IMG/VR virus record: IMGVR_UViG_3300033273_000069
Coordinates: 1-55,280 of that record
Source: a virus
Reading direction: 5' to 3' (one strand)
Length of the DNA: 55,280 bases
The notes under the pieces: model-generated
What the model was told of the DNA's origin: nothing
The model's input: only the letters and a program-made list of their open reading frames with translations
The model's database searches: none
In this document: piece by piece, positions 12,527 to 55,129 of the stretch
How positions within the stretch are numbered: the stretch's first letter is position 1
Layout: every line of letters starts with the position of its first letter
Program-made: the position numbers and the translations under genes

Positions 12527-12557
12527 AACATAACGGATATGCAAAAAGCTGTCGTCC
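12527..12557 (-). promoter_or_regulatory. Late-type GGACGAC box, copy 1
   Basis: Minus-strand GGACGAC (12557-12551) begins at the stop codon of the upstream nuclease gene and precedes the lysis genes. TATGTT (12532-12527) lies 18 bases downstream at a -10-like distance. Flanking CAAAAAGGGCTG and CAGCTTTTTG can pair around the box. Confidence 0.5.
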
Positions 12558-12934
12558 TAGATCAGCCCTTTTTGTAGTAACAGTGCTGTGTAAAGTTGAC
12601 GCCAATCCTTCAGGCGCATGACGACAAGACTGTCGTTGAGTGCTTCTTGATTACGCCGTGTGATTACGACTGGCGCTTCGGGTGAGCGAGTATCTTTGAT
12701 GTTGCGTTCGGCCTGTGCCATAGCGTCCCGAAAGTTCAGACGTTCTACGCGCTTTGCCTCGATGAATATTTCGGGTGTACCGAGGATGTCAGCGCCGCCT
12801 GCTTGAAGGCCGACCTTTCCGCCTCCGCTAAGGGGCGCACGTTGGCAACGATCTTCACAGAAGATGTGCTCGTTGAACCACTTTGCCAAATCGTTTTCGT
12901 ACTTGTCGCCTTTGCGCTTCTGTGGATTTCCCAT
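12557..12934 (-). CDS. PD-(D/E)XK endonuclease (Holliday-junction-resolvase-like)
   Basis: A 125-residue protein with the compact motif series of phage Holliday-junction resolvase-like nucleases. N-terminal helix KGDKYENDLAKWFNEHI (Glu 13 as possible first ligand) is followed by PLSGGGKVGLQAGGADILGTPEIFIEAKRV, where D50 and E-A-K form the PD-(D/E)XK core. It probably trims or resolves branched replicated DNA before packaging. The gene follows directly on a zinc/HTH protein and ends at the late-type GGACGAC box. Confidence 0.75.
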   Translation of the reverse strand: MGNPQKRKGDKYENDLAKWFNEHIFCEDRCQRAPLSGGGKVGLQAGGADILGTPEIFIEAKRVERLNFRDAMAQAERNIKDTRSPEAPVVITRRNQEALNDSLVVMRLKDWRQLYTALLLQKGLI

Positions 12935-13294
12935 TTACCAAGGAACCTCTGGTTTGTACGGCTTCTTGCGAGCCTGCGTTTCATTGTTCTGCTCTTCGTA
13001 GGAAACGCGAGCAGCGTCTGCTTCCCTGTCTAGGCATGGGTCACACCTAAACTGGTTTTTTGGTCTTGCCTTCGTGCATCCGCACATAAGACAAGGCCGC
13101 CTCCATTTTTTAGGAGACGGCTTGATCTGGTACTTGGCCCCTGGAAAATATTGAAGATTGAGGCGCATCAGTATTCTCTTGAGCGTGTCTACGCACACCG
13201 AGTATCGTTCTGCTAGTGCCTTGTGCGTGAAGTCGTTGTGATGATTACGGAGCCAAGCTACCTCTTCGTCTGGTAGCTTTGTTCTTCGTGCCAT
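12935..13294 (-). CDS. HTH and zinc-finger protein (119 aa)
   Basis: The start is placed at ATG 13294 (MARRTKLPDEEVAWLRNHH), which has AAGGCGGCA upstream. The frame stays open for 94 more codons without a convincing start. The N-terminal 50 residues form a homeodomain-like HTH (DEEVAWLRNHHNDFTHKALAERYSVCVDTLKRILMRL). A C-terminal CLMCGC...RCDPC cluster (four Cys in two pairs, about 75-95) can bind zinc. A DNA-binding role, perhaps regulating the genes downstream or recognising the inverted repeats just upstream, is plausible. Confidence 0.7.
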   Translation of the reverse strand: MARRTKLPDEEVAWLRNHHNDFTHKALAERYSVCVDTLKRILMRLNLQYFPGAKYQIKPSPKKWRRPCLMCGCTKARPKNQFRCDPCLDREADAARVSYEEQNNETQARKKPYKPEVPW

Positions 13295-13362
13295 TGCCGC
13301 CTTCGCAATTATTTCCTGCGTGAACATGTTATGTCTTGTAGCAAATACACAACTTTTAGTAA

Positions 13363-13393
13363 ACGTACGGTCGTAAAAAATATCTCCGTACGT
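13363..13393. repeat. Inverted repeat, 8-bp arms
   Basis: ACGTACGG (13363-13370) and CCGTACGT (13386-13393) are separated by 15 A/T-rich bases. It lies in the 450-base gene-free interval between the HTH/zinc-finger gene and the primase-helicase gene. Confidence 0.55.
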
Positions 13394-13394
13394 A

Positions 13395-13422
13395 TTGACT
13401 TTTCCGACAAAGACGATAAAAT
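13395..13422 (+). promoter_or_regulatory. Candidate plus-strand promoter
   Basis: TTGACT (13395-13400), a 16-base spacer and TAAAAT (13417-13422) match five of six positions in each box. It points away from the HTH gene, towards the terminator at 13718. A weaker candidate is TTGAAG/TAAACT at 13586-13614. The product would be an RNA of roughly 130-320 bases. Confidence 0.45.
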
Positions 13423-13518
13423 CGCAAGCGATGTAGGCGACTGCAAGCGAGTTCGCCGATGCGGTAGCATCTGCGAACGAGAGCAGGACAAAGACGTAAG
13501 AGAGCAGCGATTTTATCG
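13414..13518. other. Long-range inverted repeat with internal hairpin: origin or structured RNA
   Basis: CGATAAAATCGC (13414-13425) has an exact 12-base complement GCGATTTTATCG at 13507-13518. Between them sits a second strong hairpin (13451-13478): GTTCGC, mismatch, GATGC, loop GGTA, GCATC, mismatch, GCGAAC. An A/T-rich tract follows at about 13537-13615. Next to the primase-helicase gene this fits a replication origin. As RNA it would fold into a two-stem structure. The interval 13295-13745 holds no convincing gene. Confidence 0.55.
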
Positions 13519-13717
13519 GTTTCGATACGAACGCTGTACGCACAGAAAAAAAGATTTCCTGAGAAATTTTTTGCAAATAATTTTGTTGAAGTGTGTCTTA
13601 AACTTATGCTAAACTTTAGTTGTTGAAGTTGGTCGTGGTGAGGGGTTCATCTCTTGCTGCGGCTTAAATAAATGCTTGGTGGATGCCTGTTCCATCTGCT
13701 CCAAAATTTCAAACTGA

Positions 13718-13747
13718 AAGCGCCCCACTTGGAGGCGCTTTTTTTTT
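13718..13747 (+). terminator. Rho-independent terminator reading rightwards
   Basis: AAGCGCC (13718-13724), a 9-base loop, GGCGCTT (13734-13740) and a run of nine T residues. The T-run is on the plus strand, so it stops rightward transcripts from the gene-free interval, against the end of the primase-helicase gene. CTCCAA upstream can pair with TTGGAG in the loop, a possible alternative fold. Confidence 0.75.
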
Positions 13748-15695
13748 ACTGCGAGTTAGATACCCACGATGCGGTTGATGTTTCTCTTATTGGCCTTGTC
13801 CATTCTTCTACTGTGGATACTGGACGACCAACCCGATCAGCAATCTCCAAGTCAGATAACGGTGGGCGAGTTGCCCCCGATGCATCAGACCACTCCTGCG
13901 CAAAAGTAAGTGCGCGTTGCTTGGCTGTCTTAGGCGCAATGACAGACACCGTATCGTCAGTCTGTGATGATGCGAACGCCATGTTGTAGACAGGCTCGTG
14001 TGCGTCTGACCATTCACGTACCTTGCCGAAGCGAAGCTGCATCATCACATCGAGGCGCTTGTGCTCTGCGTCAGCGGCTGCCTGCATATCTACGAACGGA
14101 GATGCGGGGATTGTCTCTTCATAGATACCCGCCTTTACGTCAGCCGTTTCCTTGTCCCAGAATACTTGCGTGACTTTGATCTGGGTTTCGAGGACGGTCA
14201 ACTGGTTCGAGCTACCTGCCTCACGACCTGATGCTGTGCCCTCACTTGGCTTGTTGCTGTGGTGTAGTAGCCATACGCATAGCCCTGCGTTCCGTAACTT
14301 GAGGCAGAGTTGGTTGATGTACCCCCACTGTTCTGCTGAGTTCTCTTGCAATCCAGGGAAGGCCGAACGGATCGTGTCAATCACAACGTGCGTAGGCTTC
14401 GTAGCTTTGATCCACTGCTCGAAGTTCTTGATACCCGCTTCGTTCATCAGGTTCATGTCTCGGTCGTCATGGAAAGGTGCCCAGATCATGAAGTTATTTC
14501 CTGCATCACCGAAGCTACGTTTAGAGCGATCTAAAAACTTAGCGATGTTTGCTCGGCTGTTCTCGAAGTCGAAGTACAAAACTTTCGATGTCTTGTTTAG
14601 ATCAAATGGGCCGAAGCGATACTGCCCAGAGCTTGCTGCGTACAGTAGGTTTCGTACGAACATTGACTTACCGTGACCAGAGTAACCGAACACCTGAATG
14701 ATTGTCCCTGTCGTTGGCGCAATCGGGTCAATGAAAAACTCCCTTTGATCTAAGTAGGACTGTAGCGCGAAAAGGTCGCTCGTAGTGATCGGCTTCAGGA
14801 GGCGTGGCTTTGGCTGCTCTGGTACCACTTTCTCGGGCGCTACGTTGCCCTTGCGTACCTCATTCTCCTCGGCTCGCTCACACATCTGGCGAACCTTGCT
14901 GTCCTCGATGGGGTTCTGGAAGAATGCATCCATGAAACGATACGCACCATCGACAAGTTCTTCGCCGCGATCACCCTGCCCTGCAAGTGACGATATGTAC
15001 TTATACAGACGATCATCACGACCGTTGCCACCACCATCAGGAAGTTTGCCAACACGCGCCACCAGTTCTTCAGTGCGCTGCCATATAGGCTTGTCTACAT
15101 GTACGTCATTAAGAGACATACCCTCAAAGCGAAATGAGTTGAAGTCTACCACATTTGTTTGGGTGTTCGATGTCCCAGCCAGATCGTGTAGGCGTGGTGC
15201 GTACACTGGAAGATCATCAAAGTCGTGACCCTGTAACATTTCCCACTGGTAATTTTTACTAGGCGGTGCAAGGACGTAACCCTTCGATCCACGTAGATCG
15301 AGGCCGTCAACACGAGGCCAGTCCCGACCATTGCCATCTGCACCAACACGGTTCTTGATCCACCCTGATCCCTTGGGGAACTTGAAGTAGAAGTGCCAAC
15401 CCTTCTTCGTGCGTACAGATATAGGTGTGGACGTCAGCCCATACTTCTTTGCTTCATCGACAGCATTTTCGTTGTCGCAATCTACAACGATAATTTCCGA
15501 CATCTCACCTGTAAGTATGGCGATGTTTGCATTGGGCCACTTCTCGAACCAATCAATCACCTCTTCTTCTGTCGGCATTACGTGGTTGTCTATGTAATGC
15601 CCCCACCTTATGAGCGGCTTCTTTGTGTCAGGGCTGATCGGTATTACCGCCCACCCGTAATCCAGATACTCTAGTGCCGCGTCCAGTATTTCCAT
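13746..15695 (-). CDS. Bifunctional primase/polymerase-helicase (Prim-Pol plus RepA-like ATPase)
   Basis: A 649-residue replication protein. Residues 1-170 are an archaeo-eukaryotic Prim-Pol domain (ALEYLDYGWAVIPISPDTKKPL, metal-binding D72-C-D74 in VVDCDNENA, then GWHFYFKFP). Residues about 320-520 form a RecA-like hexameric helicase domain with Walker A GYSGHGKS (337-344), Walker B HVVIDTIRSAF and the later LLHHSNK sensor. The C-terminal 60 residues contain an HTH-like segment (LSDLEIADRVGRPVSTVEEW). It would prime and unwind at the phage origin while the host supplies the polymerase, since no polymerase gene is visible. Confidence 0.9.
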   Translation of the reverse strand: MEILDAALEYLDYGWAVIPISPDTKKPLIRWGHYIDNHVMPTEEEVIDWFEKWPNANIAILTGEMSEIIVVDCDNENAVDEAKKYGLTSTPISVRTKKGWHFYFKFPKGSGWIKNRVGADGNGRDWPRVDGLDLRGSKGYVLAPPSKNYQWEMLQGHDFDDLPVYAPRLHDLAGTSNTQTNVVDFNSFRFEGMSLNDVHVDKPIWQRTEELVARVGKLPDGGGNGRDDRLYKYISSLAGQGDRGEELVDGAYRFMDAFFQNPIEDSKVRQMCERAEENEVRKGNVAPEKVVPEQPKPRLLKPITTSDLFALQSYLDQREFFIDPIAPTTGTIIQVFGYSGHGKSMFVRNLLYAASSGQYRFGPFDLNKTSKVLYFDFENSRANIAKFLDRSKRSFGDAGNNFMIWAPFHDDRDMNLMNEAGIKNFEQWIKATKPTHVVIDTIRSAFPGLQENSAEQWGYINQLCLKLRNAGLCVWLLHHSNKPSEGTASGREAGSSNQLTVLETQIKVTQVFWDKETADVKAGIYEETIPASPFVDMQAAADAEHKRLDVMMQLRFGKVREWSDAHEPVYNMAFASSQTDDTVSVIAPKTAKQRALTFAQEWSDASGATRPPLSDLEIADRVGRPVSTVEEWTRPIRETSTASWVSNSQ

Positions 15696-15885
15696 ACGTT
15701 GCCTCCGTGAAATATTGATCGAGGTCTAGCGAAGGCCAAACCTCTTTGATTTTTGACAGGTAAGTGGAGGAAACAAAGTCTCTGCGTACCCACCCATACG
15801 GCGTGGTTCGGCAGATGCCCAACGACTTAGCTACAGCGGGTGCCCCACCTAAGTCGTCGATCAGTCTTTGAATATCAAAGTGCAT
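15628..15885 (-). CDS. Cro-like HTH protein (85 aa)
   Basis: Starts at ATG 15885 with AGGAAAACG upstream. Residues 5-58 form a small HTH of the Cro/YdaS kind (IQRLIDDLGGAPAVAKSLGICRTTPYGWVRRDFVSSTYLSKIKEV). The last 27 residues overlap the primase gene by 68 bases and look like frame shadow. The gene diverges from the recombination operon, whose promoter at 15902-15930 contains a short palindrome. It is therefore a natural candidate repressor of that promoter and of its own. Confidence 0.75.
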   Translation of the reverse strand: MHFDIQRLIDDLGGAPAVAKSLGICRTTPYGWVRRDFVSSTYLSKIKEVWPSLDLDQYFTEATYGNTGRGTRVSGLRVGGNTDQP

Positions 15886-15901
15886 TTTTTTCGTTTTCCT
15901 C

Positions 15902-15930: not shown

Positions 15931-15988
15931 CTACTACAACACAACCTCTGATCTGTACTTACAGCATCAAATTTCAAGGACAAACATC

Positions 15989-19803: not shown

Positions 19804-19826
19804 GGAGGGGGCTAGTAGCCCCCTCC
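19804..19826. terminator. Strong hairpin between convergent operons
   Basis: GGAGGGGGCT, loop AGT, AGCCCCCTCC: a perfect 10-bp G/C-rich stem containing the stop codon of the giant minus-strand gene. T-runs are poor on both sides, so it may act as a bidirectional block rather than a classical terminator. Confidence 0.55.
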
Positions 19827-22800
19827 AAATCCGCCTCCGTATCCAGAAGATTTCTTGCCGCCTGCACCGCGTACACCCGCGACCGTATCGACAATACCTT
19901 CTTTAGCCCACGATACTCCGCCGAGAACTGGTACGCGCCCTGCAATTTCACGAACTGCTGCGCGACGCAAACCATTAGTTTCGTCATCATCCCACCAAGA
20001 ACGTGCACCTTGCATCACTGTTTGAGCGTCGTTGAATAGTCCGACAGTTGGGCCGCCGATAGTTTCAAGAGTACGTTGTGCACCGTACGCACCATTGTCT
20101 GTTTGAGATGCAATGTCGTACATCAACTCACCAACTAGACCTAGACCGCCGAGTGCAACCATACCATCGAAGTACCAACCCATAAGGATGTCCAAGTCCT
20201 CGTTCTCTACGAACGCCTCAGATACGGTTTCCGACAACTTGCGTTCACGTAGCGCAAACTCACGATTGTCCTCTCCACCACGACCTTGAACAACATCTTT
20301 TGCTCCGACCGCGATGCCACCCATTGCAGGGCCAGCTACGAGAAGGGCAGCCAGTGGGCCAAGGCGGTTGTCGCTCTGACCTACGAACGCTTTAGCGAAG
20401 TTCGCGCCACGCTCTGCAACTGTATCTCCACGGAATGCCTCACCCGCTACTGTGTTAATCAAGCGTGTCATCATCAGTGGGTATGACTTCAACTGGAAGG
20501 CAATCGCGCCAAGCGGCGTCTGCGCCCACAGAGGGATGTCATTTGGGTTTGGCGTGAAGATCATCTGGTTTGTTAGCTTGATCGTGGACGATGCCAACTT
20601 GTTCGCAAGTGGATGTTCTAAACCGCTGAAGCGGCTTTCCATGATCAAATCCATATCGAGTGATTGATCCTCGACGAACTCAGCTAGACCCTCTTCCCGT
20701 AAGATACGGCGAGCAATCCTACCAGCCCTAGAATTTGGACGGTTTTTCAGGATTTTGTGCTGCGCTTTTAGGTGTTCGTACGAAACTGCACCCGCAACGT
20801 CACGCATCATATCTGTCCAGGGGGTCAACAATGTAGCGTTAAAGAAGCCCGTCATGAACTGCGTACTATCTACACCATGAGCAACTGTCAGACGTTGGTG
20901 TACTGCGTTCTCTGTTGCAGCACCGATGTTGCGTATCATGTCGCGGTACTCTGGGTCGCTCGCAAACTTGTATAGAGACTTAGTGTACGCCCCAATGTCA
21001 CCTGAACGGATCAATGGAAGGATCAAGTCACCAAGTGAAGTTAGCGTTGTGAAGCCCAGCAGTGTCACCGCGTTCACACCACGCAACCACTTGGACGCAT
21101 TCTTGAGCGAGTACGTACCGTGCACTCCGTCGATTGGACGGCGCATCGCTGCGTTCATAAAGCCCTGTGCGTGCTTGAGGTTGTCGTTAGATGCGAGCTT
21201 TGTCAGCCCTTGTGTATCAGCTAGTGCACTTGCGATAGCTTTGGCTCTCTTGCGGAAGTTTTCACGAAGCATGTTTGCATCAGGATTTTGCGAAAGCTGA
21301 TCGCCAAGCAAGTCCATAATGTTTGCCTCGATCTCAGCAGCAGTCGAACCACGCTGCGCCATTTCGATTAGCTCGTCAGCTTTTATCTTTGCACCATCTT
21401 TGTTCTTGATTGGTGCGTAGAAGTAATTGTTGTCGAACTTCATCTCCTTGACGCCGTGATCTGATCCACCTGAACGAACATAGGTCGCAGTGATAATCTT
21501 GTTCGTGGATAGTAGCTTACCGATAACCTCACGCGGGTTCATCGGCTGCGCAACAATCGCCATGTAGTCGTGATACCCGTGTGCGCCGACGCCAAACTCT
21601 TGTGCAATGTCGATACGATGTTCGACGTTATCACTGTATTTGGTCATCGCTACGAGAATATCGTTCTCCATAAATACAGCAAGACTGTCGGGTGTATCAA
21701 AGTCTGTAAACTCTGGATACTCATCAAGTCTAATTACACGATTGTAGTCTAGGTGATCAGACTGATCGCCTGCCTTATCAGACATACGCTTGAAGTTCTG
21801 TGATGGGTTCGACAGGACGCCATCCTCATCAATTATGCGCTGCATAACCCGACGAGCAGACTTCTCAGCTTTCTCTGCGTTGCCGCCACCTTTGCGTTCA
21901 GCCAAGAAGTAACGAGTTAGTCTGCGTACAAACTCTTCTGGGTCAGCTTCGATCAAGTCTTTGCGCCAGATTTGAGGAACATAGTTCTTCTTAATCTCAC
22001 CAACAATAGCGCCAGCAGCACGCATACGGCCTACAGCCTCATCCAGATACCCGCGTGCGTGGTCATATACAGCACGCTCTGCTGGTGTCAAAGATGGAAC
22101 TTTATTGGCGTCACGTAGCGCACTCATCACACGAAGATGACTTGCAGGTTGGGTCAATCGACGCTTCGGATTGATGCCCAATGCACCCATTGCACTTTCC
22201 GCCATCATCTGCGGGCCAGTACGCCAGTAGTTGATGAGTTTATTATTGCTGTCAGGTAGCTGTTTCAGCAACTTTGTTAGCGGGATAACGAATTTACCCA
22301 TGCGGGCGTTCGTACGCTCGAAGTGCCCGCCACTTCCGTCCTTTGGCTCAAAGAAGTTAGCTAGGGTTTTAAGCCCAGAGCGATCCATAATTTTTGAGTT
22401 TGTACGTAGTGGATTAAATATGCTGGACTTGCGTATCTCTGCGGCTGCGTCTGACGGCATACCACGCCCGCGTGCGACAGAGATCATAGCTTCCAGCGTA
22501 CGCGCTGGGACGCCTGCTTCTTCTAGTTCTGTTGCTGCTTGACTAAAGATACGAACAGGATCACCACCAGATGATGCCGCCTGCATGATGCGACCGTTTA
22601 CTGAGTGTACGCGCGATGCTTCACCCAACACTGGTCTTGCATCTTCGAACACATCGCTACGGATGCCGCGAACATTGCGAGAAGAAAGCATGAGCTTCTC
22701 ATCGCCTAGCTCGATACTTGTAAAGCCAGCATCGCCCATCGCTTTCTTGAACTTGCGTACGCCACCTAACTTAGAGACAAGCTCTCTTGCCATATCTTCT

Positions 22801-25800
22801 GGTAGCTGCAAGCCACGCATTGCAGCAATTTCTTCTGCAACTCTATTGCGACCCTCAGATTTAAGGTGGCTAATAAGAGCCTTAACGATTGGGTGACGAA
22901 CCGACATATCGCCACTGAACACGGCAGGCTGTACGTCGCGGATAAACACTGGGTCTGTGTCTGCGCTTACGTTTATACCCATGCCTGTAAGTTCTTCGGT
23001 TAGAACATCGTCTAGCGTGTAGAGCTTGTCGATGTACTCGTTTGAAGAGTTAGGGTCGATACGTGCAGCATTGACTTTAGCGCGTGCCATTTCTAGCGCA
23101 TCAACCAAGTCCTCTACGTTTTCTCTCATTTCGGGAGACGCCGAACCAATGATGTCGTCACGACGGTTCTGTATTGTATTCATCGGCAAACGGGTGACGT
23201 AAGTGCCCCGACCAAAGACACCATCTTTTTGACCGTTGGTGAAATGCGGAACCATGTTGTCGTTAGTAAAGTCACGAACCGCCTCATAACCCGCCATTGT
23301 GTAGTCAAGCATGATTTCGTTGGCGTGGTCAATCGCGTACTCAGCAGGAACTGTGTCGCCATAGCGAGCACGAGGGCTGCCTTTTCTAGTACCAGAGGTG
23401 CCAATCATGTCGCCGTAGGCAGTGATAGCCGAGAAGCGTTCGCGTGCCGCTGTACTGGTTATAACGCCGTTCAGAACGTATCCAGCAGCCTCTAGTATTT
23501 CGTTGTCCAACTCCTCAATGAAGTCATCGAACAAGTCCATGTCCTCTGCGTCCATAACATTCTGGATTGCCTTGACTTGAGGGCTTCCGACATCGAGGTC
23601 AGAAACTTCAACAAGAATATCGCTGAATAACTTTTCTGGCGGAATGCCAAGGACTGCACTCGCCTTTGACATGACGTTGCGGGTAGCATGAGAAACGGCA
23701 TGACTTGCGTACAGCCCCTCACCTACAAAAGCTATTGCCTGCGAGATGTCGTCGCCACGTACAAGGTTCGTACCAACTGTACGAACGGCTTTCCTGTACG
23801 AACCGTACGAAGATGCATCGACTGACTGCGGTAAGTTCTCCGCTCCCAGGCGTGCAAGGCGTGCAGTAATCGTACGTGATACAAGTTCAATACGGTTGTC
23901 ACGGTGTGTGATACCACGAAGATACTCGCGCATCTTGACCGTTGCATTCTGCGGAATGCCATTTTCGAATGCTGTACCCGCATCTTGCGCCTGCTCAATA
24001 ACGATTGCCTTCTCGACGGCATTCGCTTCTTTGTTACCTCGTTTTGCAGCACGGTTCTGGTGACGAGTTCTAATTAGGTGCTTGATGATATTCATCGCCT
24101 GCTCTGGCGATGCACCCAAGCCTTTAATCGTTTCCTTGTCGGCAGAGAACGACAGCCCTAACACAAGCTCTGGCTTCTGGGCTTCAACGGCTTTGCCTTT
24201 GTTGCCACCGCCTTTTACCTTCTCCTTAGACTGCCAAGTGTTAAAGATCGCCTGCTCTTCTTCGGTTAGCGTGATGTCTTTAACTTCTGTTTGGACAAGG
24301 TGGTAAACACGTCTTGCCAGCTTGTTACCAAACTGTGTGGGGTTCCCGTCCTTGTCGATCTGACGACGATACTCAGACAGTGCTTCTATCAAGGAATACT
24401 TGTTAGGATCGCCGCCCTTGGTGCCCTTTACGACCTGACCCTTAAACTCAACCTTGTTAGATTTCGCTTGGGCGCTCATGATCTGTTCGAGAGACTTCTT
24501 AAAGTTGCGACGTTGTACGTTTACCGCACGCTTCATCTCTTTAGAGCGAGAAATCTTCTCCATCTTTTCTGGAGTAAGCCCATTGATCTCACGACGCGAA
24601 AGAATTTCGTCTGAAATCTTGTACTCAGGGATGTCACCACCCTCGACCTTCATAAAGACTTCATTGATCTGCTCCAACTTGCCGCGTGCGTATTTACCCA
24701 AACGGCTGTTCCATAGCTCGATCATGTCTTTAGGCATGTCTGAATGGTAGGTAGACCCGCCAACAACCATGTCATCGCCGACTTGACTTACAGTGTAGTC
24801 AACTGATGCAGTAATCTTGTTGATCTCTTCAGCAAGCGCACGCATTTGTCTGTGGCCTTTGATCGCTTGGAATGCACCTGAATAGCTTTCGATAAGTGCA
24901 CGATCTGTAGCAGTTGCCCGACCCTCACGCGTCGATGCGATTGCACGCTCACGCTTTGTCATGGCAATACCGCTAAACGCGGCTGATAGTTGACGAGAAG
25001 CTAGACCCATTTTCTCGATGTCATGCATATCAGGATAACCCTGCATTGCTTCCTCGAATGCATGTATCGCTTGGTTGATCTGGTCGTAACGAATACGAAG
25101 AGATGCACCAAGTTTTGTCTCTGGTGATTTGGGGTTCACAAAGCGTACACGACGAGCTTCGTCTTTATCTGCAATCATCTTCTCGAAGATTGGTTCCAAC
25201 TCGGGATCTACAATGTGACGGTTAGTGATGTGCTTCCAAAGTTTCTGGATAATTTTCGTAGCTTTTTCGAACACGCTCATAGGCGCAATCGGAGCTTCGT
25301 ACTTCTTGTGCGCCCATAGAGCGAACTGGTTAGCAAACAACTCACCTGGGTTTTGCTGCGCGTTAGACATGCCAGCAAAGTTCTGACCGTCTTGAACCAT
25401 TGGAGAGTACGCATCTAGCAATGTACCATCTACGCGGTCAGATACGAAGCCTCCGTCGAACTTACCGTTCTGGTCGTAGTATTTACTTACTGACTGCCAA
25501 AACTCTAGTTTCAGTTCAGGAGTAAGTAGGTTCATGTACGCCCAGTGACCAAGCTCGTGCATGATTGTAAAGGATGCAGATACACCCGTCTTTTCGCCAC
25601 GATGGTCTAGTGTTTTCCCGTTTAGGAAAATGTTATTGAAGTCTGGGCCGACATTACCTGTCGCTGCATCTGGGCCAGCCTTACTAAACTCTTGCATTCT
25701 CAACGGACGGCTTGCGAACAACCCCTGTACGTCATCTGGCAACAAGTCAGATAGGTTGTAATCTTCGAGGGGTTTGATTACAGGCGCAGATGACTTCGGT

Positions 25801-28800
25801 ACAATCGCTCGGAACATACGCTCGATGTGTGCAAACGTAGATGGGTTCATCTTGTTTGTCACTTTGCGTAGCTGCTTCACAGACTTATCAATGTCCTGAC
25901 CAGGCATACGCAAGCCCAGTGGAGCCTCTTTGCCAAGTACGTGTAGGTACGCAGTGATCGCATCGAGGCGACGGTTGAACGGTATTTCCTGCTTCGTACC
26001 TGGAATGTCCATGCGGAACGATGCATTTTCTAGGTCTTTGAGTACGTCAGCAAGTTCAGCAATAGTGATGCGCCCCTCTGACAAAAACTCATCAACTGTG
26101 CTTTCCATGATCATCTGAGAGTTTACCATGCGTGCGCCGATAAACAGGCGTTGCGCAATGGATTTACCCTCTGGTGTTGAAGCTAGGCTCTTGATGTCTA
26201 CTTCAACATCAAACGCCTCTTCGTACTCCATAGGAGCTTTCGGAAGATTGTCAGCAGACTTCTTCGGTACAGGCTGTGCACCGATGTCATTATTCTTGTC
26301 GAGTGGCTCGAACACAGACTTGATAATGTCTCGGTCTGTTGCCGCGCTTGGACGCTTCCCGTCTATCTCTCTTGGTATGTAACCGATATTGAAGTTCTTG
26401 ATGTCGCCCTTACCCAACATCTCTTTTAGACCAGCACCACGCTCTTCTTGAGCTTTACCTAGTACGCGAGGTTTTTGCTCAAGGGTCTTGGGAAGAAGTA
26501 CAAGGATTTTGTCATCACGTACAGCGGGCACATCTGGAAGCTCTTGCGATGTGGTTACGTCGTTACCCTGACCATCAACAACTTTCTTAGTAGCTGGGCC
26601 ATCTACGGTAACACCACCCTTACGGGCTTTTGCCTTTAGGATTTCTGTTTCTTCTTCAAACTTATCGAGGTCGCCATCTTTTGCGAACTTAGCTTCTGCC
26701 TCGTCCATCATACGCTCGAAGTCCTCGCGTACAGAGATGCCCTTCTCGTTCGGGTCTACGATCTTGTACTTCTCTTCTTGCTTGATACCCATGCGGGCTT
26801 TTGCAAGTGCTTCTGTTTCGTACGTGTCGAAGCGTTTGTACCCAGTCTTAGGGTTGACTGTCATAACGCCGAACACTTCTTGACCTTCGGAGGCAGGAGC
26901 TTTCGCGCCATTGATGTGCTGACCTGCGCGGGCTTTGTACGCGTAAATGCCTTGTACTACACCTTTAGTTGCTAGATCGTTTTCTGCTTTGGCGCGTGCA
27001 AGCTCACGAGTTTCGTTCTTACGAAGGAAAATGTCGTACCCTTCAGTAATAGTGTACCCGTCACTTGTTTCGCGGCCTGGGCGCAAGAAGGATTGTATCT
27101 TGCCAACTTTCTTCTTTGTCTCACCAGTTTTAGGGTCGATGTAGTCAGTAAGTACGCGACCAGCGATCTTGTCCATTTCAAGAACTTTGCCTGCACGGGC
27201 GGTACTGCCGCCAATGCCGTACGAAGTCTCGCCACCTTTCTGACGTGCACGCGTAGATAGCGTTTCCTTGAACTTAGCAATCTCTTGCTGGTTCTTAAAT
27301 GAAATGTACGTTTCGCCTACGTCACCGTCTAGCTGATCAATACGACGACGGATTGCAGCCGCGACCTCATTCTTGACGGGGGTGCCATCGTCCGCAGCCG
27401 CCTTCAAGAACGCAGAGAAACGGTTGCGTACAGAGTTGACCTTGAGGGTTTTGTAGAAACCAGACTTCTCAACGATGTCGTAAAACAAAGCATCAGCATC
27501 GTCAGAAATTTGTGCGGCTTCTACGTCTGTATCTTTTTTGGCTATAGCATCTTCAGCTTTAGCTAACTTAGGGTCTGTAAAGGAGGCATCATCTTTTCGA
27601 ACAGGCGTACCATATACTTCGTTTACTAGCTGCTTTGTATAAACAGAACCTGTCCTGCCGTTGAAAGTTCTTCCTTCTCTGGCGGCTATGTGTATATTTA
27701 TAGCCTGCCGACCCGCAGGAGTTATTTTGCCATCTTTCATATGGGCTTTATCGGCTGCAAGAATTTTGCCAATTTCAGCTTTAGTAAGGGGCTTATTGTT
27801 TGTTCCGTTTTTTTCGTTTGCCTCTTTTACTTTGTTGCCGTCTAAGTGGGATTTTACGGTTTTTTCAAGCTGTGCAGTCCAACCACCTTTAGTATCCGTT
27901 GAATACTTGACGGCTTTTACATCTGGGATTTCTGGAACTTTTGGGACAGCAGGAGCCGCAACGTCGCCTGCCTTTACCTCGCCGCCTGTATCTCCTTGAC
28001 CTTCTGCGTTATCGGTGTTGTCAGGTGTACCTTCTGCCTTATCACCACCTTGATCCCCTGCCGTATCTTCTGCGGGTGGCTCTTCATTTCCAGTCTTTGT
28101 CGAGTTAGGAGATGCTTTCTTTTTCTTAGCTTCGTCAGCTTTCCTCTGAGCTTCGGCAGCCGCTTCTGCTTCTGCGATACGGTTGCTACGAATGTCGGCA
28201 GCATCTAATCGGTTTACCCGCTCGATGTCAGTAGACGTTAAGATTTCTTGGAACTTCTTGTACTTCTGATCGTAGTCAGCCTGTAACGCACTTGTATTAG
28301 AACCTTCAGTCTTGGCTGTCTCTAGCTGCTTGGCAGTATTCTCTAGTTCATTTTCTAGCTGTACTGCACGCTGTACTGCCGCTTGTACGTCAGCACGCTC
28401 TTTCTCGATATTAACAAGTTCTTCTGCTGCATCTTCGCGTGCTTCAGGAGGCAAAGTATCATCAGCTACTGCGGACTGAGCCGAACGCTCCATGTCGTTC
28501 AGTTCAGTGATACGAGCATTTGCTTTCTCACCGAATGGTGTGCCTTCTTTCCATTCAAGCGCACGTTGTGCAGGAGCCTTAGAAGCTAGAGCACCGATAC
28601 CCGCACCGACTGCGCCACTGAACACACCTTCGATTGCACCAGATGTGGCGATTTGAGTAGTGTCGTACTCGTCTCGTAGACCCTGCTGGATTTGGCGAGA
28701 CTGCTGTAGGGCGTCAAAGCTAGAACCGATACCCGCGCCTAGAGAACCTTCAAGCAAAGCACCGCGTTTTGCGCCTGCCTTCATTGCGGCTTTCGTAGCG

Positions 28801-29249: not shown

Positions 29250-29277
29250 CGGGTACTCCATTTAACCTGATCGTCAC

Positions 29278-29309
29278 AGATTAGTTGAGAGTACCCTGTC
29301 AAGTCGTCC
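29278..29309 (-). promoter_or_regulatory. Late-type GGACGAC box, copy 2
   Basis: Minus-strand GGACGAC (29309-29303) follows the consecutive stops of the upstream internal virion gene. TAATCT (29283-29278) lies 19 bases on, and the giant gene begins 54 bases after the box. Confidence 0.5.
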
Positions 29310-34178: not shown

Positions 34179-34639
34179 AGCCTAGCCCTCACTGTATATC
34201 CAAACGGGGCCATGCCTAACTTACCCCAAAGTTTCTGTACTCGCTCGGGCCTGATACCCGCGTTTGCGCCACCGATAGCTTCGTCTGCGTTAATAGACTT
34301 TGCCCAAGTGACAAATTTTTTCATAAGTCTAGGGCCAGTCATGCCGCCCCTATATTCCTTACGAACGTAAATTAACTTCTCTCGTGCCTGCCGTGCGTCG
34401 CTGAAAAGCATTGTTCCGTAGTCTCCTAAGAGCAGGCCAATAATTTTTCCGTCGTCCACAGCTAACTTAGCGAAAGTTTCAGGTTGATTTTTAACGTACC
34501 CGTATAAGTTACGCGCCATCTTTTCGGCGTTGAACTTGAACTTAGGGTCGTTGCCCCAGACAGTCTCGGCGTGCATCAAGCTAGTTAAGCGCACGATTTC
34601 AAAAAGATCGTCTAGTGTTGCGTCCCTATATGTGATCAT
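34175..34639 (-). CDS. GNAT-family N-acetyltransferase
   Basis: A 154-residue GNAT fold: MITYRDATLDDLFEIVRLTSLMHAET at the N-terminus, then central strands (FAKLAVDDGKIIGLLLGDYG), the acetyl-CoA-binding motif A region IYVRKEYRGGMTGPRLMKKFVTWAK and the C-terminal LGMAPFGYTV. It lies within the virion block and overlaps neighbours by one to four bases, so it is made with structural proteins. Phage GNATs of this position may acetylate a virion or host protein. The substrate is unknown. Confidence 0.85.
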   Translation of the reverse strand: MITYRDATLDDLFEIVRLTSLMHAETVWGNDPKFKFNAEKMARNLYGYVKNQPETFAKLAVDDGKIIGLLLGDYGTMLFSDARQAREKLIYVRKEYRGGMTGPRLMKKFVTWAKSINADEAIGGANAGIRPERVQKLWGKLGMAPFGYTVRARL

Positions 34640-34887
34640 TACTTGCGACCTGTCGCCTTACGCACCATGTCATCAATGTTGTAGAACTCGATCATCCCGC
34701 TCTTTGGGTTGAAGGTTCCTGCGCCACCGATGTCTTGAAGCAACTTGATCGTGAAGGGTGATGCGCGAACTACCATGCTGTCGCCTTCACGGCCCATGTC
34801 CGCAGACTTTGCGTCGATTGCCGCTTCTTCTCGACGGGTTGCGATTGACTTGCCCGTGTTCGGGCCGAAAACGTCACTAAATGCCAT
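34639..34887 (-). CDS. Small virion-block protein (82 aa)
   Basis: ATG 34887 follows CAGGAGGCCATT. The 82-residue product has a structured C-terminal half (MVVRASPFTIKLLQDIGGAGTFNPKSGMIEFYNIDDMVRKATGRK). No enzyme motif was seen. As the first gene after a GGACGAC box and before the GNAT gene, it is expected to be expressed late. It is probably a minor structural or assembly protein. Confidence 0.65.
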   Translation of the reverse strand: MAFSDVFGPNTGKSIATRREEAAIDAKSADMGREGDSMVVRASPFTIKLLQDIGGAGTFNPKSGMIEFYNIDDMVRKATGRK

Positions 34888-34912: not shown

Positions 34913-34949
34913 ACTATAGGGTAATCGACATGCTACAGTCGTCCCTAAT
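34913..34949 (-). promoter_or_regulatory. Late-type box, copy 3 (full 14-base form)
   Basis: ATTAGGGACGACTG (34949-34936) includes the stop codon of the 415-residue gene and is identical to the copy at 40133-40120. TATAGT (34918-34913) lies 19 bases after the GGACGAC core, and the next gene starts 51 bases after it with AGGAGG between. Confidence 0.6.
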
Positions 34950-40096: not shown

Positions 40097-40133
40097 ATTT
40101 ATGGTCGTTTTTTGCGGAGCAGTCGTCCCTAAT
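40097..40133 (-). promoter_or_regulatory. Late-type box, copy 4 (full 14-base form)
   Basis: ATTAGGGACGACTG (40133-40120) lies just after a hairpin that follows the capsid gene. ATAAAT (40102-40097) lies 19 bases beyond GGACGAC, and the next gene begins 54 bases after the box. Confidence 0.6.
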
Positions 40134-41360: not shown

Positions 41361-41493
41361 TGCTAGTCTCCTTCTAGGTTTTGGTTACTTTATGTGCGAG
41401 GTACTCAAGATCACGCGGAACAATCACGCGAAACCTATCGTCCCATATAGCAACATCGACATAAAAGGAGCCGTAGCGCCCATCGACATTGAT

Positions 41494-41527
41494 TAGATAT
41501 TGTCAGAAAATTCTGTAGTGGTCGTCC
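41494..41527 (-). promoter_or_regulatory. Late-type box, copy 5, in the capsid-gene leader
   Basis: GTGGGACGACCAC (core 41527-41521) follows immediately after the scaffold terminator. TATCTA (41499-41494) lies 21 bases on. The remaining leader to the capsid start is about 130 bases and contains no gene with a standard start codon. Confidence 0.5.
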
Positions 41528-43430: not shown

Positions 43431-43691
43431 TTAGCAGTTCCATGCCTTGCGCGACCAATAGTTCGCCGACAGTTTGTTGGAGGTGCCCTTGATGCCACCC
43501 GAACGGGCGCAGTACGACTTCTTGCGTGCAGGCTTAGACTTCTTGATGGTCATCTTGGGATCGCCGAAGCGGATGATCTTCTCTTTGCCGTTCGCACAAG
43601 CCTTCACGATAGACTTTTTCTTAGACCCCGCAGGCGCTCTGCGGGGTTTGTTGCATGGCATATCTTTTTTGCTGGCACGTTTAGCTGGCAT
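43431..43691 (-). CDS. Small basic phage protein, DUF6321-like (86 aa)
   Basis: ATG 43691 follows AAGGAGAAATGCG. The 86-residue product contains GKEKIIRFGDPKMTIKKSKPARKKSYCARSGGIKGTSNKLSANYWSRKAWNC, a pattern seen in a small phage family (DUF6321-like) with conserved RFGD, YCARS and W-x-x-K/C ending. It is highly basic. It opens the run of small basic genes, directly after late-type box 6, so it is probably made in large amounts late in infection. Confidence 0.7.
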   Translation of the reverse strand: MPAKRASKKDMPCNKPRRAPAGSKKKSIVKACANGKEKIIRFGDPKMTIKKSKPARKKSYCARSGGIKGTSNKLSANYWSRKAWNC

Positions 43692-44421
43692 CGCATTTCT
43701 CCTTGAGTGAAGTATCTACTAAAAAGAAAGAACTGTCGTCCCGTAATGCGTCGTTGTTTCTGGTCCTATGTTCATCTTCGACTAATGGTCTTATGCGTGA
43801 AACCATTGAGTTAGTAAGCACCGCATTACTGCTAAAGATAATGCGTTCTTGCTTACCCATGTGAGGCTTAGTGCGGTGTGGCATGAATGAGGGGAATATA
43901 ATCATTCGACCCCTCTTTGCCTCTACGTCAATGCTGTCGTACCACATTGTCGTAGCTCCCTCGGTCATGTGACCGTAAATGGGATAAGCAGGGTTCTTGA
44001 ATATGATCTGACCAGTACCTTCCTCGGCCTGACCATAAAAAACCATACTTAGATGCGAGTTGGGGTGAGTATGCTCTGGGACGTAACAACCCTCGTCATA
44101 GGTTGCTACCCAAGATGTATCTATGTAAAAGTCACCGAACTGTTCGCAGCTATGAAAATACTCTTGGTATAAGGCACACGCGGCTTGGTGAACTTTGGGA
44201 ACCGCGCCAAGAGTGGCGAGGTTGTAATTTGTAAAACTGGTGTAGCCGTACTTTGCATAGTCTTCGGGAGACTTCGCTGTCTTCCCAAACTCCTCACCTA
44301 TTAAGCCACCTTCGCGGTCACGCTCTCGGAGCCTTAGAGTAAAGTCACAAAGTTCATCAGCTATTTCATCACCGTCTGGTAAGTCGCGTACCAGTATGGG
44401 AAAGGAGAAGGGATGGATCAT
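43681..44421 (-). CDS. 2-oxoglutarate/Fe(II)-dependent oxygenase-like protein
   Basis: A 246-residue protein matching the 2OG-FeII_Oxy_5 type. It has WVATYDEGCYVPEHTHPNSHLSMVFYGQ (iron-binding H119 or H123), the strand GQIIFKNPAYPIYGH, GRMIIFPSFMPHRTKPH (H182) and R193 in QERIIFSSNAVL, which would bind 2-oxoglutarate. Phage members of this family are found in marine myo- and podoviruses, often among structural genes. The substrate is unknown: it may hydroxylate a virion or host protein. The 3' end contains late-type box 6 within its coding sequence. Confidence 0.82.
   Translation of the reverse strand: MIHPFSFPILVRDLPDGDEIADELCDFTLRLRERDREGGLIGEEFGKTAKSPEDYAKYGYTSFTNYNLATLGAVPKVHQAACALYQEYFHSCEQFGDFYIDTSWVATYDEGCYVPEHTHPNSHLSMVFYGQAEEGTGQIIFKNPAYPIYGHMTEGATTMWYDSIDVEAKRGRMIIFPSFMPHRTKPHMGKQERIIFSSNAVLTNSMVSRIRPLVEDEHRTRNNDALRDDSSFFLVDTSLKEKCDAS
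43711..43741 (-). promoter_or_regulatory. Late-type box, copy 6, inside the end of the oxygenase gene
   Basis: ATTACGGGACGACAG (core 43741-43735) lies in the last codons of the oxygenase frame, encoding RDDS. GATACT (43716-43711) lies 18 bases on, and the first small basic gene starts 44 bases after the core. Confidence 0.45.
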
Positions 44422-49345: not shown

Positions 49346-49881
49346 TACAAAGTGCTCCCGTCAAAGAGTTCTCCGTGTAGCTGGGCGATCAGGATGCCCT
49401 GCGCAATCACGGTTGGAGTGGTTTGGTACGCTTGGTTCATGTACGTCTGCGCAAGATCGCGTGCAGAGTTCGCTGCATCGCGTGCCCCTTCAGCCAAGCT
49501 CTGCGCAAGCTCCGCTGCATTCTCAGAGGCAAGGGCTTCTTCTGCGCTCTGCTCCGCGTCTGCACGCTTAGTTTCCATGTTGGCGAGAGCCGTAGTCTTG
49601 AAGTTCTCCAAGTCTGTGAAGAGTTGCGTGAAGGATGCGATCTCTTGGAACTGACCGTCCGTACCGATGCGAAGTTCTAATGTCTGAGTGTCGTTCGCGT
49701 TTGTGTAGCGGAACTCAAAGGCGTCGATGTCACCCGTCGCGTCGTTGAACAACTTACCCATAAGGGTCGCCAGTGATAGGCCGCCCATCTCCGCATCTTC
49801 AAGATACGTATCAAGAAGAGTGGTGCCCGTATTCTGCGAGCGGAAGTTAAGCTGTTCGGAAGGGACGCGCGTACGTGCCAT
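49345..49881 (-). CDS. Fibre-related coiled-coil protein (178 aa)
   Basis: ATG 49881 overlaps the previous stop as TAATG. The N-terminal 80 residues are beta-rich and contain LSLATLMGKLFNDATGDIDAFEFRYTNANDTQTLELRIGTDGQFQEIASF. The C-terminal half is a long Ala/Glu-rich coiled coil (METKRADAEQSAEEALASENAAELAQSLAEGARDAANSARDLAQTYMNQAY), as in fibre shaft proteins. It probably forms a trimeric stalk with the next gene product. Confidence 0.7.
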   Translation of the reverse strand: MARTRVPSEQLNFRSQNTGTTLLDTYLEDAEMGGLSLATLMGKLFNDATGDIDAFEFRYTNANDTQTLELRIGTDGQFQEIASFTQLFTDLENFKTTALANMETKRADAEQSAEEALASENAAELAQSLAEGARDAANSARDLAQTYMNQAYQTTPTVIAQGILIAQLHGELFDGSTL

Positions 49882-50153
49882 TAATTATCCTCATCCATTC
49901 GTTTCGCCAGATCAGCCAACTTAGCTGCGCGGCTTGCTGACATTGCGAGCAGTTCTTCGGTGTTAGCCATCCGACCCGCTACGTCGCCCATGTCGCGCTG
50001 TAGGCTTTCTCTTGCTGCCAATATTGCACTACGAAGGGCCGCTATGTCGTCCCTCATAGGTTTTAATTCTTCATGAATACGGGCGTCGATGTACTCACGC
50101 GTTGTTGCGTCTACCTGAGACGCCCAATGGCGGCTTGGTACGGGGTTCGTCAT
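49881..50153 (-). CDS. Small coiled-coil protein (90 aa)
   Basis: A 90-residue protein with an N-terminal segment (VPSRHWASQVDATTREYIDARIHEELKPMRDD) and a coiled coil (LRSAILAARESLQRDMGDVAGRMANTEELLAMSASRAAKLADLAKRM). The start overlaps the portal stop by four bases (ATGA). Such small proteins directly after the portal are common in podoviruses. The role is unknown, perhaps connecting portal and fibre. Confidence 0.65.
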   Translation of the reverse strand: MTNPVPSRHWASQVDATTREYIDARIHEELKPMRDDIAALRSAILAARESLQRDMGDVAGRMANTEELLAMSASRAAKLADLAKRMDEDN

Positions 50154-52066: not shown

Positions 52067-52081
52067 AACACAACATTTACT

Positions 52082-52105
52082 CCTATAATTACCCTTCAGT
52101 CGTCC
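52082..52105 (-). promoter_or_regulatory. Late-type box, copy 7, before the portal gene
   Basis: AATAAGGACGACTG (core 52105-52099) begins at the TAA of the terminase gene. The spacing to the portal start is only 33 bases, and the best -10-like match, TATAGG (52087-52082), is closer than at the other copies. This is the copy that least fits a standard promoter. Confidence 0.4.
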
Positions 52106-53770: not shown

Positions 53771-53780
53771 AATATCATCC

Positions 53781-53882
53781 TCAGAGGGTCGTCGTCGAGC
53801 AATACGGGATTGTCAGTTTCGATGTAGCAGAACCATCTTCATGCTCTGTGATCTTGTTTATGTGGATCATGTCGTCACTCAT
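53781..53882 (-). CDS. Tiny unknown protein before terL (33 aa)
   Basis: ATG 53882 follows AAGGAGAAAAACT, a strong ribosome-binding site. The stop at 53781-53783 is ten bases before the terL start and lies in its ribosome-binding region, so the gene may couple translation to terL. The product begins MSDDMIHINKITEHEDGSAT and has no known family. It is too short for ordinary gene finders. Confidence 0.5.
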   Translation of the reverse strand: MSDDMIHINKITEHEDGSATSKLTIPYCSTTTL

Positions 53883-53930
53883 AGTTTTTCTCCTTATCCT
53901 TTGCGGTAAATACAGGTAATATTCTCCGCA

Positions 53931-54215
53931 TTACTTGCTGGTTTTATTCTTTACGGTAAGCATCCAAGCATTGAAGTCTGCACTTGCCATGTAGTCTGCA
54001 AGCACACGTTCAATAGCCCGCAGCAGGTCTTCGTCAGGCTCTATGTATTCACCCACTGTGTTGTCGATCTTGGTGGGCTTACTACACAAGGCGTGATACT
54101 TCATAAGAGATACGATAACAATTTCTTCTTCGTAGTCGTCCTCTAGTTCACGTAGCATATTGCTGAACCTGTCAGTAATTGTATCTGCTATAGTACGGGT
54201 TACGTTGTAGTTACT
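53931..54215 (-). CDS. Unknown small protein (94 aa)
   Basis: The start is set at ATG 54215 (MSNYNVTRTIADTITDRFSNMLRELEDDYEEEIVIVSLMKYHALCSK), which follows GGAGGAGATAGAA. The frame can be extended to 54290 only into the preceding gene. Acidic and helical, with no family recognised. It overlaps the upstream gene by five bases and precedes the tiny pre-terL gene. Confidence 0.6.
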   Translation of the reverse strand, partial: SNYNVTRTIADTITDRFSNMLRELEDDYEEEIVIVSLMKYHALCSKPTKIDNTVGEYIEPDEDLLRAIERVLADYMASADFNAWMLTVKNKTSK

Positions 54216-54516
54216 CATTTCTATCTCCTCCGCACATTGGGCAGGGATTAAGCCCCTTAATCTCCGCATAGCCAACACCATAGTCGTCATGCTTCACCTC
54301 TATGATGTCGTGGTTATTCAAGAGCCTTCCCATGTCGTTTCGCACACGAGCGATAATCCATCGTATGTCGTCAGGCGTTTCACCCCATAATTCTACAGGG
54401 CTAAACCCCCATGCGTCCCCTACCTCTTCGGTGGCAGGGTAAAACTCATGCACAGCGTAGTATGCTTCGCCTTTGGGGTAGATGTGCTTGATTAGTCGGT
54501 AATGCCATGTGCTCAT
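54211..54516 (-). CDS. Unknown protein with CPMC motif (101 aa)
   Basis: A 101-residue protein starting MSTWHYRLIKHIYPKGEAYYAVHEFYPATEEVGDAWGFSPVELWGETPDDIRWIIARV. It ends with a CPMCGGDRNE tail, one half of a possible zinc knuckle. Such proteins (W/Y-rich with a PVELWGETPDDI segment) occur in several phages beside terminase genes, but the function is unknown. It overlaps TerS by four bases. Confidence 0.65.
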   Translation of the reverse strand: MSTWHYRLIKHIYPKGEAYYAVHEFYPATEEVGDAWGFSPVELWGETPDDIRWIIARVRNDMGRLLNNHDIIEVKHDDYGVGYAEIKGLNPCPMCGGDRNE

Positions 54517-54842
54517 TCGTCTTTGTCCTCCACAACTTCGGCGTCGATGATGTCGTTCATACCCGCAGCGATTGCTTCGAGTTGCTCACGAGACATTTTT
54601 TCGGGGGCTTCTTGTACAGCGTGCTCGTGCTGTACGAACTGTGCGGTCAGATCGGGCATGACTTTGTTGAGCATTGCCGTGAACACCCGCGCTTGTGTGG
54701 GGTTCCACTCCTGTTTGCCCATGACGACGTTGTGGGCCTCGTCTATTTGCTTCTCAACACGGCGGTATAGACCCGCTCGCATGTTGGCGACTTGGAGGGG
54801 CGTAAGTTTTGCGCCCGTTTGTACTGAATTTTTGCGTGACAT
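54513..54842 (-). CDS. Terminase small subunit-like protein
   Basis: A 109-residue helical protein. The central LTPLQVANMRAGLYRRVEKQIDEAHNVVMGKQEWNPTQARVFTAMLNKVMPDLTAQFVQHEH has the NPTQARVFTAMLNKVMPDL pattern found in many small terminase-like proteins of phages, followed by an acidic C-terminus (DIIDAEVVEDKDE) that may contact TerL. It opens the minus-strand late block near the divergent control region. The order TerS then TerL, with small genes between, supports the assignment. Confidence 0.7.
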   Translation of the reverse strand: MSRKNSVQTGAKLTPLQVANMRAGLYRRVEKQIDEAHNVVMGKQEWNPTQARVFTAMLNKVMPDLTAQFVQHEHAVQEAPEKMSREQLEAIAAGMNDIIDAEVVEDKDE

Positions 54843-54925
54843 TGATTGGTTCCAGACGTTTTCAATTTTGCTCAGATTTCTCGAGGGGTCGGAGATGGCA
54901 ATTCGCGAGCGGGCGGCGGCGGGAT

Positions 54926-54940
54926 GGGGGGTGGCCCCCC
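54926..54940. repeat. Perfect G/C hairpin
   Basis: GGGGGG, loop TGG, CCCCCC, in the gene-free stretch upstream of the small terminase gene. No clear T-run follows on either strand. Confidence 0.5.
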
Positions 54941-55011
54941 TTTCGTACAGGATTTTGCCTCATTTTAGTCACATGACCGCGCTAATGCGTTGATTTTGCT
55001 GCATTTTCGCT

Positions 55012-55030
55012 CCCCTCGTAGGGGATTTTT
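55012..55030 (+). terminator. Terminator-like hairpin in the control region
   Basis: CCCCT, CGT, AGGGG, ATTTTT on the plus strand. It would insulate the rightward early unit beginning at 55257. The interval 54843-55256 contains no full-size gene. Confidence 0.45.
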
Positions 55031-55072
55031 GGGGTTTTTTCGCGTTACGAAAATTTCCAATTTCGCTCCTCT

Positions 55073-55097
55073 CGCGTATGAAAATTAGCCATACGCG
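55073..55097. promoter_or_regulatory. Operator-like inverted repeat, 8-bp arms
   Basis: CGCGTATG (55073-55080) and CATACGCG (55090-55097) separated by nine A/T-rich bases, next to the GTTACGCA palindrome. Confidence 0.5.
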
Positions 55098-55098
55098 C

Positions 55099-55129
55099 AT
55101 GTTACGCATTTGCGTAACGCACGTCGTCC
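55099..55129 (-). promoter_or_regulatory. Late-type box, copy 8, with operator palindrome
   Basis: GGACGAC (55129-55123) reads towards the small terminase gene. TAACAT (55104-55099) lies 18 bases on. GTTACGCA, TT, TGCGTAAC (55101-55118) is a perfect palindrome spanning the spacer and -10. Related GTTACG or GTAACGCA sequences lie at 55044-55049 and 55235-55242. Confidence 0.5.

Follow-up and report, generated by a model that had tools for sequence, protein, structure and literature searches.

A GGACGAC box conserved at late-gene boundaries is a probable late promoter element of CRP-810-family phages

What switches on the late genes of a phage that shows no RNA polymerase of its own? The question is raised by a viral record from IMG/VR (IMGVR_UViG_3300033273_000069; its full 55,280 nucleotides (nt) are called the window below), where the heptamer GGACGAC recurs on the minus strand at the boundaries of late genes. 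A preliminary description, made from the window alone, read these boxes as late promoters carrying an activator box in place of the -35 element, or else as an RNA-processing signal. We found that the box, its position and its spacing to a -10-like hexamer are conserved throughout the family of Roseobacter phage CRP-810, that selection acts on the DNA word, and that the boxes co-occur with the gene of a small helix-turn-helix (HTH) protein with four conserved cysteines, here called HTH-Cys4. The boxes are very probably late promoter elements. Taken as a whole, the evidence is best explained by a single class of late promoters likely to be served by host RNA polymerase together with a phage-encoded reader of the box, with HTH-Cys4 as the leading candidate.

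GGACGAC boxes in the window

Exact search recovered all eight minus-strand copies that had been reported. They are listed below from the packaging unit to the lysis unit, with the higher coordinate as the 5' end.

55123-55129, minus strand: box before the packaging unit (small and large terminase, TerS and TerL); -10-like TAACAT at 55099-55104, spacer 18
52099-52105, minus strand: box between TerL and portal; weak -10 GTAAAT at 52075-52080, spacer 18
43735-43741, minus strand: box before gene 43431-43691; -10-like GATACT at 43711-43716, spacer 18
41521-41527, minus strand: box of the major capsid protein (MCP) gene, directly after a hairpin-T-run terminator; -10-like CAATAT at 41497-41502, spacer 18
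40122-40128, minus strand: box after the MCP terminator; -10-like CATAAATA from 40103, spacer 18
34938-34944, minus strand: box before gene 34639-34887; -10 TATAGT at 34913-34918, spacer 19
29303-29309, minus strand: box before the gene of a giant virion protein of 3149 amino acids; -10 TAATCT at 29278-29283, spacer 19
12551-12557, minus strand: box of the lysis unit, directly after rusA; -10 TATGTT at 12527-12532, spacer 18

Both strands of the window together hold 17 copies of GGACGAC, against 7.8 expected from shuffles (shuffle maximum 15). The enrichment is concentrated in the gaps between minus-strand late genes, where GGACGAC is the top 7-mer: these gaps total 1640 nt and contain 6 copies, while 0.11 would be expected (about 5e-5 once all 16,384 words are allowed for). 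The claim that two copies share 14 identical bases was confirmed, ATTAGGGACGACTG being present exactly twice. The reported sequence contexts also held on reading: a hairpin with a T-run lies directly before the capsid box and a hairpin precedes the post-capsid box, while others begin at, or just past, a stop codon. Five plus-strand copies and the copy at 34451, which is present in only 1 of 13 relatives, look like chance occurrences and were set aside. One more copy lies at 54135. The giant virion protein that has its own late box (19812-29261, minus strand) shows no domain above the Pfam cut-off.

Spacing to the -10-like hexamer

The preliminary description placed a -10-like hexamer 18-21 bases beyond most boxes. 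The hexamer is present at seven of the eight sites, as a sequence whose second base is A and whose sixth is T, or as CATAAATA, 18 or 19 bases past the box; the wider range did not stand, the spacing across relatives being 18-19. In the window the hexamers are TATGTT, TAATCT, TATAGT, CATAAA(TA), CAATAT, GATACT and TAACAT, and the portal site offers only GTAAAT. Of 107 diverse sites, 52 had their best -10 match at spacer 17-20, almost always at 18 or 19; shuffles gave 11.7 such sites, and 20 at most. TAnnnT at a spacer of exactly 18 was found in 30 of 66 putative capsid promoters, and a sequence logo carried little information outside the box and the -10. A -10 located 18-19 base pairs (bp) downstream puts the box at -37 to -31, the position of a -35 element. 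A TAnnnT-like hexamer at a fixed distance from an upstream element, as expected for a housekeeping sigma factor, is what these sites present.

Conservation across the CRP-810 family

The window belongs to the CRP-810 family of marine phages (Roseobacter/SAR11). Its MCP is 69% identical to that of CRP-810, which has homologues of all six core genes of the window, those for portal, TerL, MCP, prim-pol, the YqaJ nuclease and the AAA ATPase, and the order of these genes is conserved; gene order, CobS/CobT, prim-pol and the integrase all place the window in the family. The family was described in 2024 with 251 relatives in eight subgroups, SAR11 prophages among them (Wu et al., PMC11288001). The word promoter is absent from that paper and RNA polymerase is unmentioned in it, and a literature search combining GGACGAC with phage and promoter returned nothing relevant. 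For comparison we gathered 160 loci by capsid and portal searches, mostly metagenomic fragments.

Raw genome-wide counts of GGACGAC were dropped as evidence, since CAGCAGG, the same word reversed, shows strand bias too; the signal sits in non-coding gaps, and a test confined to non-coding DNA was used instead. In the sense-strand non-coding DNA of 57 non-redundant loci of the family, none of the other 16,384 possible heptamers is as common as GGACGAC, which is found in 109 gaps, against 2 gaps for the reversed word and 4 for the reverse complement.

The motif search in related phages that the preliminary description had proposed showed the boxes to be conserved family-wide at homologous boundaries. 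All 85 non-redundant MCP upstream regions carry the box or a one- or two-base variant of it (40 exact, 45 variant: GGACGAA/T, GGATGAC, GGTAGAC or GGAAGAC), and 68 of them have an NAnnnT hexamer at spacer 17-20, in 50 cases at 18. The portal box is exact in 31 of 33 non-redundant relatives, nearly always 35-40 nt ahead of the portal start, and the lysis box was found in 7/7 relatives, 37-39 nt ahead of the start. The post-capsid box recurs in 27 of 30 relatives (35/39 in a wider set) and that of gene 34639-34887 in 18 of 24 (19/22 in a wider set, with spacer 19 in 16). Before the giant-protein gene the box is exact in 7 of 13 relatives and a variant in 4 (CRP-810, G010, G019, G021 and G022 included), and before gene 43431-43691 it is present in 13 of 37, with spacer 18 in all 13. 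A count of 4/28 on the TerS side, taken within 220 nt of the TerS start, is an undercount, the window's own box being 287 nt away. Gene starts internal to operons lack the box (TerL 0/27, scaffold 0/29, the gene at 29314 0/11), and the HTH-Cys4 gene itself is preceded by one in 1 of 19 cases. The cultured phage CRP-810 has boxes before its TerS-side genes, portal, gp48, capsid (as GGACGAA), post-capsid gene and gp36, with the first G at 57582, 54984, 44227, 42591, 41248 and 31279 of its genome; its copy at 57576-57582, before gp63, occupies the place that matches the TerS-side box of the window.

The boxes flanking the capsid gene stay exact amid diverged surrounding DNA, and box and spacing are kept in genomes of 39-66% G+C content (GC) while their flanks diverge. 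At the upper end, a phage of 66% GC (G010) has boxes at the portal, at 29860 and at the giant protein, and GGACGAA at the capsid. Boxes were likewise found in AT-rich marine phages and in G022, a phage sequence in a gammaproteobacterial assembly. This 60.6 kb CRP-810-like sequence (G022:C23; L359, L408-L411) comes from a marine gammaproteobacterial metagenome-assembled genome and has both the HTH-Cys4 gene and late boxes; the host range of the family may exceed Alphaproteobacteria, or the phage contig may be mis-binned.

The pattern GGACGAC-N18-CATAAATA was found in 70 viral contigs, of which 50 carry CRP-810-family genes; the remaining 20 appear to be coding sequence that fits the pattern by chance. 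Three cultured phages with capsids about 30% identical (Kuura, VS-ABTNL-3 and PaP2) showed no exact box before their late genes and, by profile search, no HTH-Cys4. Copies of GGACGAC in the most distant contigs with HTH-Cys4 (L276, L277 and L279, from G012 and G013) were judged to be coding; these fragments are uninformative either way because they have no identifiable capsid or portal region.

Intragenic boxes and selection on the DNA word

Two further minus-strand copies, absent from the preliminary description, lie within genes.

50046-50052, minus strand: ninth box, inside gene 49881-50153 and before the tail-fibre unit; -10-like CAATAT at 50021-50026, spacer 19
11104-11110, minus strand: possible tenth box, intragenic, before the amidase gene; -10-like TAAGAT at 11081-11086, spacer 17

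Among 34 relatives, 33 keep the ninth box letter for letter, even where protein identity falls to 37%, and CAATAT, CATTAT or CATTGT follows it at spacer 19. Its aspartate codons are GAC in 66/66 cases, against 72/126 (57%) elsewhere in the same genes, and the arginine or lysine codon preceding them ends in G in 33/33, against 97/357 elsewhere. This codon bias shows that selection acts on the DNA word and not on the protein. The copy at 11104-11110 is exact in 17 of 29 relatives and is a possible tenth late box; here the word encodes Trp-Asp-Asp, and constraint on the protein could also explain its retention.

A structured leader on the capsid mRNA

Downstream of the capsid box lies an RNA structure that is found family-wide.

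41361-41489, minus strand: structured 5' leader of the MCP mRNA, with a UNCG-type hairpin C(UACG)G and a second helix

The hairpin has a conserved CGC(UACG)GC apex on a strongly covarying stem, and the second helix pairs GAGC with GCUC around GCG..CGC. In the alignments of relatives (A4/A5), helix 1 is paired in 98.5% of cells and the less regular second helix in 77%; the covariation score for both helices is 0.467, against 0.167 when shuffled and 0.02-0.10 when slid. An Rfam search of the leader returned no family at the gathering threshold. The leader possibly serves the stability or translational control of the capsid mRNA. Its structure begins just after the predicted transcription start and not at the box, which fits a promoter at that place.

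Candidate readers of the box

The preliminary description had seen no phage RNA polymerase, and our searches agree: the T7-type enzyme (PF00940) was not found in eight family genomes, while the T7 positive control was. Sigma-70 region 2 (PF04542) was not found in six genomes in which the positive controls were detected. By these tests the system is neither of the phage sigma-factor type nor of the T7 type. Three DNA-binding proteins are widespread, HTH-Cys4 and two others that are taken up below as rival readers.

12935-13294, minus strand: HTH-Cys4 protein, 119 amino acids, candidate late activator; start ATG at 13294

The HTH-Cys4 gene lies within a longer TTG-start open reading frame, between primase and rusA and immediately upstream of the first late box. 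It is present in every family genome searched: 7/7 chosen by capsid or portal, 13/13 further ones (mainly capsid-chosen), and 6/6 and 5/5 others. The first two sets are free of selection for HTH-Cys4, their genomes having been picked by capsid or portal and one by the promoter pattern. At 40-90% identity, the four cysteines are near-invariant, as is the putative recognition helix CxDTxxR, found in nearly all (usually as CVDTLKRIL). An AlphaFold2 model shows a three-helix HTH with a cysteine-rich tail; its nearest folds are GerE-type and extracytoplasmic function (ECF) sigma region-4 HTH domains, all weak matches, and searches of solved structures and with Foldseek gave weak HTH matches only. 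On this evidence HTH-Cys4 is the probable, though by no means certain, reader of the box. The CRP-810 homologue (OR671924, 14050-14316, minus strand) has no feature in the GenBank annotation.

Two AT-rich genomes of one clade, G020 and G023 (L402-L404, L412-L414), combine drifted boxes with a changed HTH-Cys4 helix (CVDTIKRILVRHN). Coevolution of box and helix was considered on this basis and set aside, two genomes from one clade being too few; the clade does offer a natural test of it.

Proposed mechanism and alternative explanations

Each late promoter would consist of GGACGAC at about -37 to -31, a spacer of 18 or 19 bp and a sigma-70-type -10 (TAnnnT or a near match). Every late unit would be closed by a terminator or gene end, with the next promoter directly after it. 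Host RNA polymerase with its housekeeping sigma factor would recognise the -10, and a DNA-binding protein made from the early or middle phage operon would read GGACGAC as the replacement for the missing -35, so switching on all late units together; the most likely reader would be HTH-Cys4. We thus infer that transcripts start at these sites, that host RNA polymerase makes them and that HTH-Cys4 binds the box. Of the two explanations offered in the preliminary description, the spacing, the position after terminators, the restriction to late units and the family-wide conservation support the first, that of late promoters in which an activator box stands where the -35 would be. HTH-Cys4 might even found a new family of phage late activators that dock host polymerase at the -35 position and take over upstream-element recognition from sigma region 4; we give somewhat less than an even chance to this second, independently evolved -35 replacement besides T4 MotA/AsiA, in globally distributed marine phages.

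Several observations weigh against this account. The -10 of the proposed portal promoter (GTAAAT) is poor. In G020 and G023 the capsid box, and in G023 also the portal box, has drifted (GGTAGAC at the capsid, GGAAGAC at the G023 portal), and some boundaries in these two genomes have no recognisable box. The genomes G010-G014, G016 and G019-G023 were fetched through HTH-Cys4 itself and are biased for any count of its co-occurrence with the boxes. Confidence in the HTH-Cys4 model is middling (predicted local distance difference test, pLDDT, 75.5; predicted template modelling score, pTM, 0.39), with no strong structural match. Multi-subunit and N4-type polymerases were looked for only through Pfam scans of selected proteins. 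Finally, a YdaS/Cro-like small HTH protein (15628-15885, minus strand, in the divergent early region) is as widespread as HTH-Cys4, being present in 18/18 family genomes and also in the seven compared first, so that co-occurrence alone cannot single out HTH-Cys4.

This last point bears on the strongest alternative, in which the promoters are as proposed and are read by another phage protein: the YdaS/Cro-like one, a LuxR/GerE-type protein (9287-9826) or one not recognised. We regard it as unlikely, at perhaps a one-in-four level of belief. The YdaS/Cro-like protein is the main rival reader and is likely an early repressor; besides its divergent early location, it was not detected in the divergent G022, which has boxes, and proteins of this kind are normally dimers on symmetrical operators. 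The LuxR/GerE-type protein has a GerE HTH and weak similarity to sigma region 4. It was rejected as a universal reader: searches failed to find it in 9 of 18 genomes, several of them box-bearing.

The boxes could instead be RNA elements that govern processing or stability, placed at the 5' ends of late mRNAs which are released by cleavage of long read-through transcripts. They are intergenic and often follow directly on a stop codon, and the capsid leader is structured. A processing signal leaves unexplained, however, both the fixed 18-19 nt to a -10-like hexamer and the location of boxes downstream of terminators, and the conserved leader structure starts after the predicted transcription start. 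This second explanation of the preliminary description is much the weaker of the two, and we consider it very improbable.

Were the -35 read by a host factor, either an alternative sigma or an activator, this would agree with the finding of no sigma factor in the phages, but the pattern is nearly confined to the CRP-810 family. Its retention across phages of 39-66% GC, from the Roseobacter type to a gammaproteobacterial assembly, makes one common host factor unlikely, and we rate this explanation as very improbable.

Sequences that mark module boundaries for recombination or packaging would be expected at module borders, where the boxes are indeed located; strand specificity, a -10 at fixed spacing, the intragenic copy at 50046 and the restriction to the first gene of late units make such a role extremely improbable. 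Chance, or shared ancestry of unconstrained DNA, might be suggested by total genome counts, in which GGACGAC does not greatly exceed its reversed form, and has a negligible likelihood, being already refuted by the non-coding counts (109 vs 2), the exact boxes amid diverged flanks and the intragenic codon bias.

Comparison with known systems

The likeness to T4 MotA boxes suggested in the preliminary description holds for the logic and fails for the geometry. T4 middle promoters likewise have a short, asymmetric, phage-specific box in place of the -35, keep a sigma-70 -10 and use host RNA polymerase (PMC2988021), as predicted for GGACGAC. The MotA box, TGCTTtA (core TGCTT), is separated from the -10 by 12 +/- 1 bp and centred at -30 (PMC2988021), whereas GGACGAC is centred at -34 with a spacer of 18-19 and does not classify as a MotA-type box. 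MotA is moreover a double-wing protein acting on middle genes, and the candidate reader of the CRP-810 family is a small HTH-Cys4 protein for late genes. Homologues of MotA or AsiA were not listed in Pfam or PHROGs scans of selected proteins, with no dedicated search made.

The Ogr/Delta proteins of P2-type phages are small Cys4 zinc-finger late activators whose sites are partly symmetrical and centred near -55, upstream of the -35. They resemble the system proposed here in that a small phage Cys4 protein would switch on several late operons together; Ogr acts at about -55, whereas the GGACGAC box occupies the place of the -35. The Ogr/Delta family was not among the matches listed in Pfam or PHROGs scans, although HTH-Cys4 does have four invariant cysteines. 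ECF sigma factors, with -35 elements of the GGAAC type, share a box beginning with GGA at -35, and HTH-Cys4 weakly resembles region 4 of SigW and SigR (E above 1); unlike in ECF systems, no sigma region 2 was found in the phages and the -10 resembles that of the housekeeping sigma. GcrA, a cofactor of sigma in Alphaproteobacteria, is a small HTH protein that works with the housekeeping sigma on chosen promoters (PMC7403470). GcrA recognises DNA at methylated sites and contacts region 2 of sigma, whereas HTH-Cys4 has a C-terminal Cys4 module.

Implications for the CRP-810 family

For CRP-810, the only cultured member of the family, no published transcription study was found in the literature searched. 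The late promoters proposed here would provide the first defined gene-expression logic for these widespread marine phages of Roseobacter and SAR11. With the model, transcript starts can be predicted for hundreds of genomes with a precision of a few bases. The model also names an unannotated protein, HTH-Cys4, as the likely late switch, and would allow -35 replacement outside T4 to be tested in a clean and portable way. The heptamer may also serve as a 7-bp tag that helps to recognise the family in metagenomes.

One stretch of the window, apart from these boxes, bears on its host. Part of 53824-54516 is about 90% identical in DNA to Roseobacter phage CRP-125, which has another type of genome (38.9 kb), and the gene at 53931-54290 within it (phrog_37819) had no match among the relatives fetched. 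The stretch was thus apparently acquired by recent transfer, and Roseobacter is a possible host.

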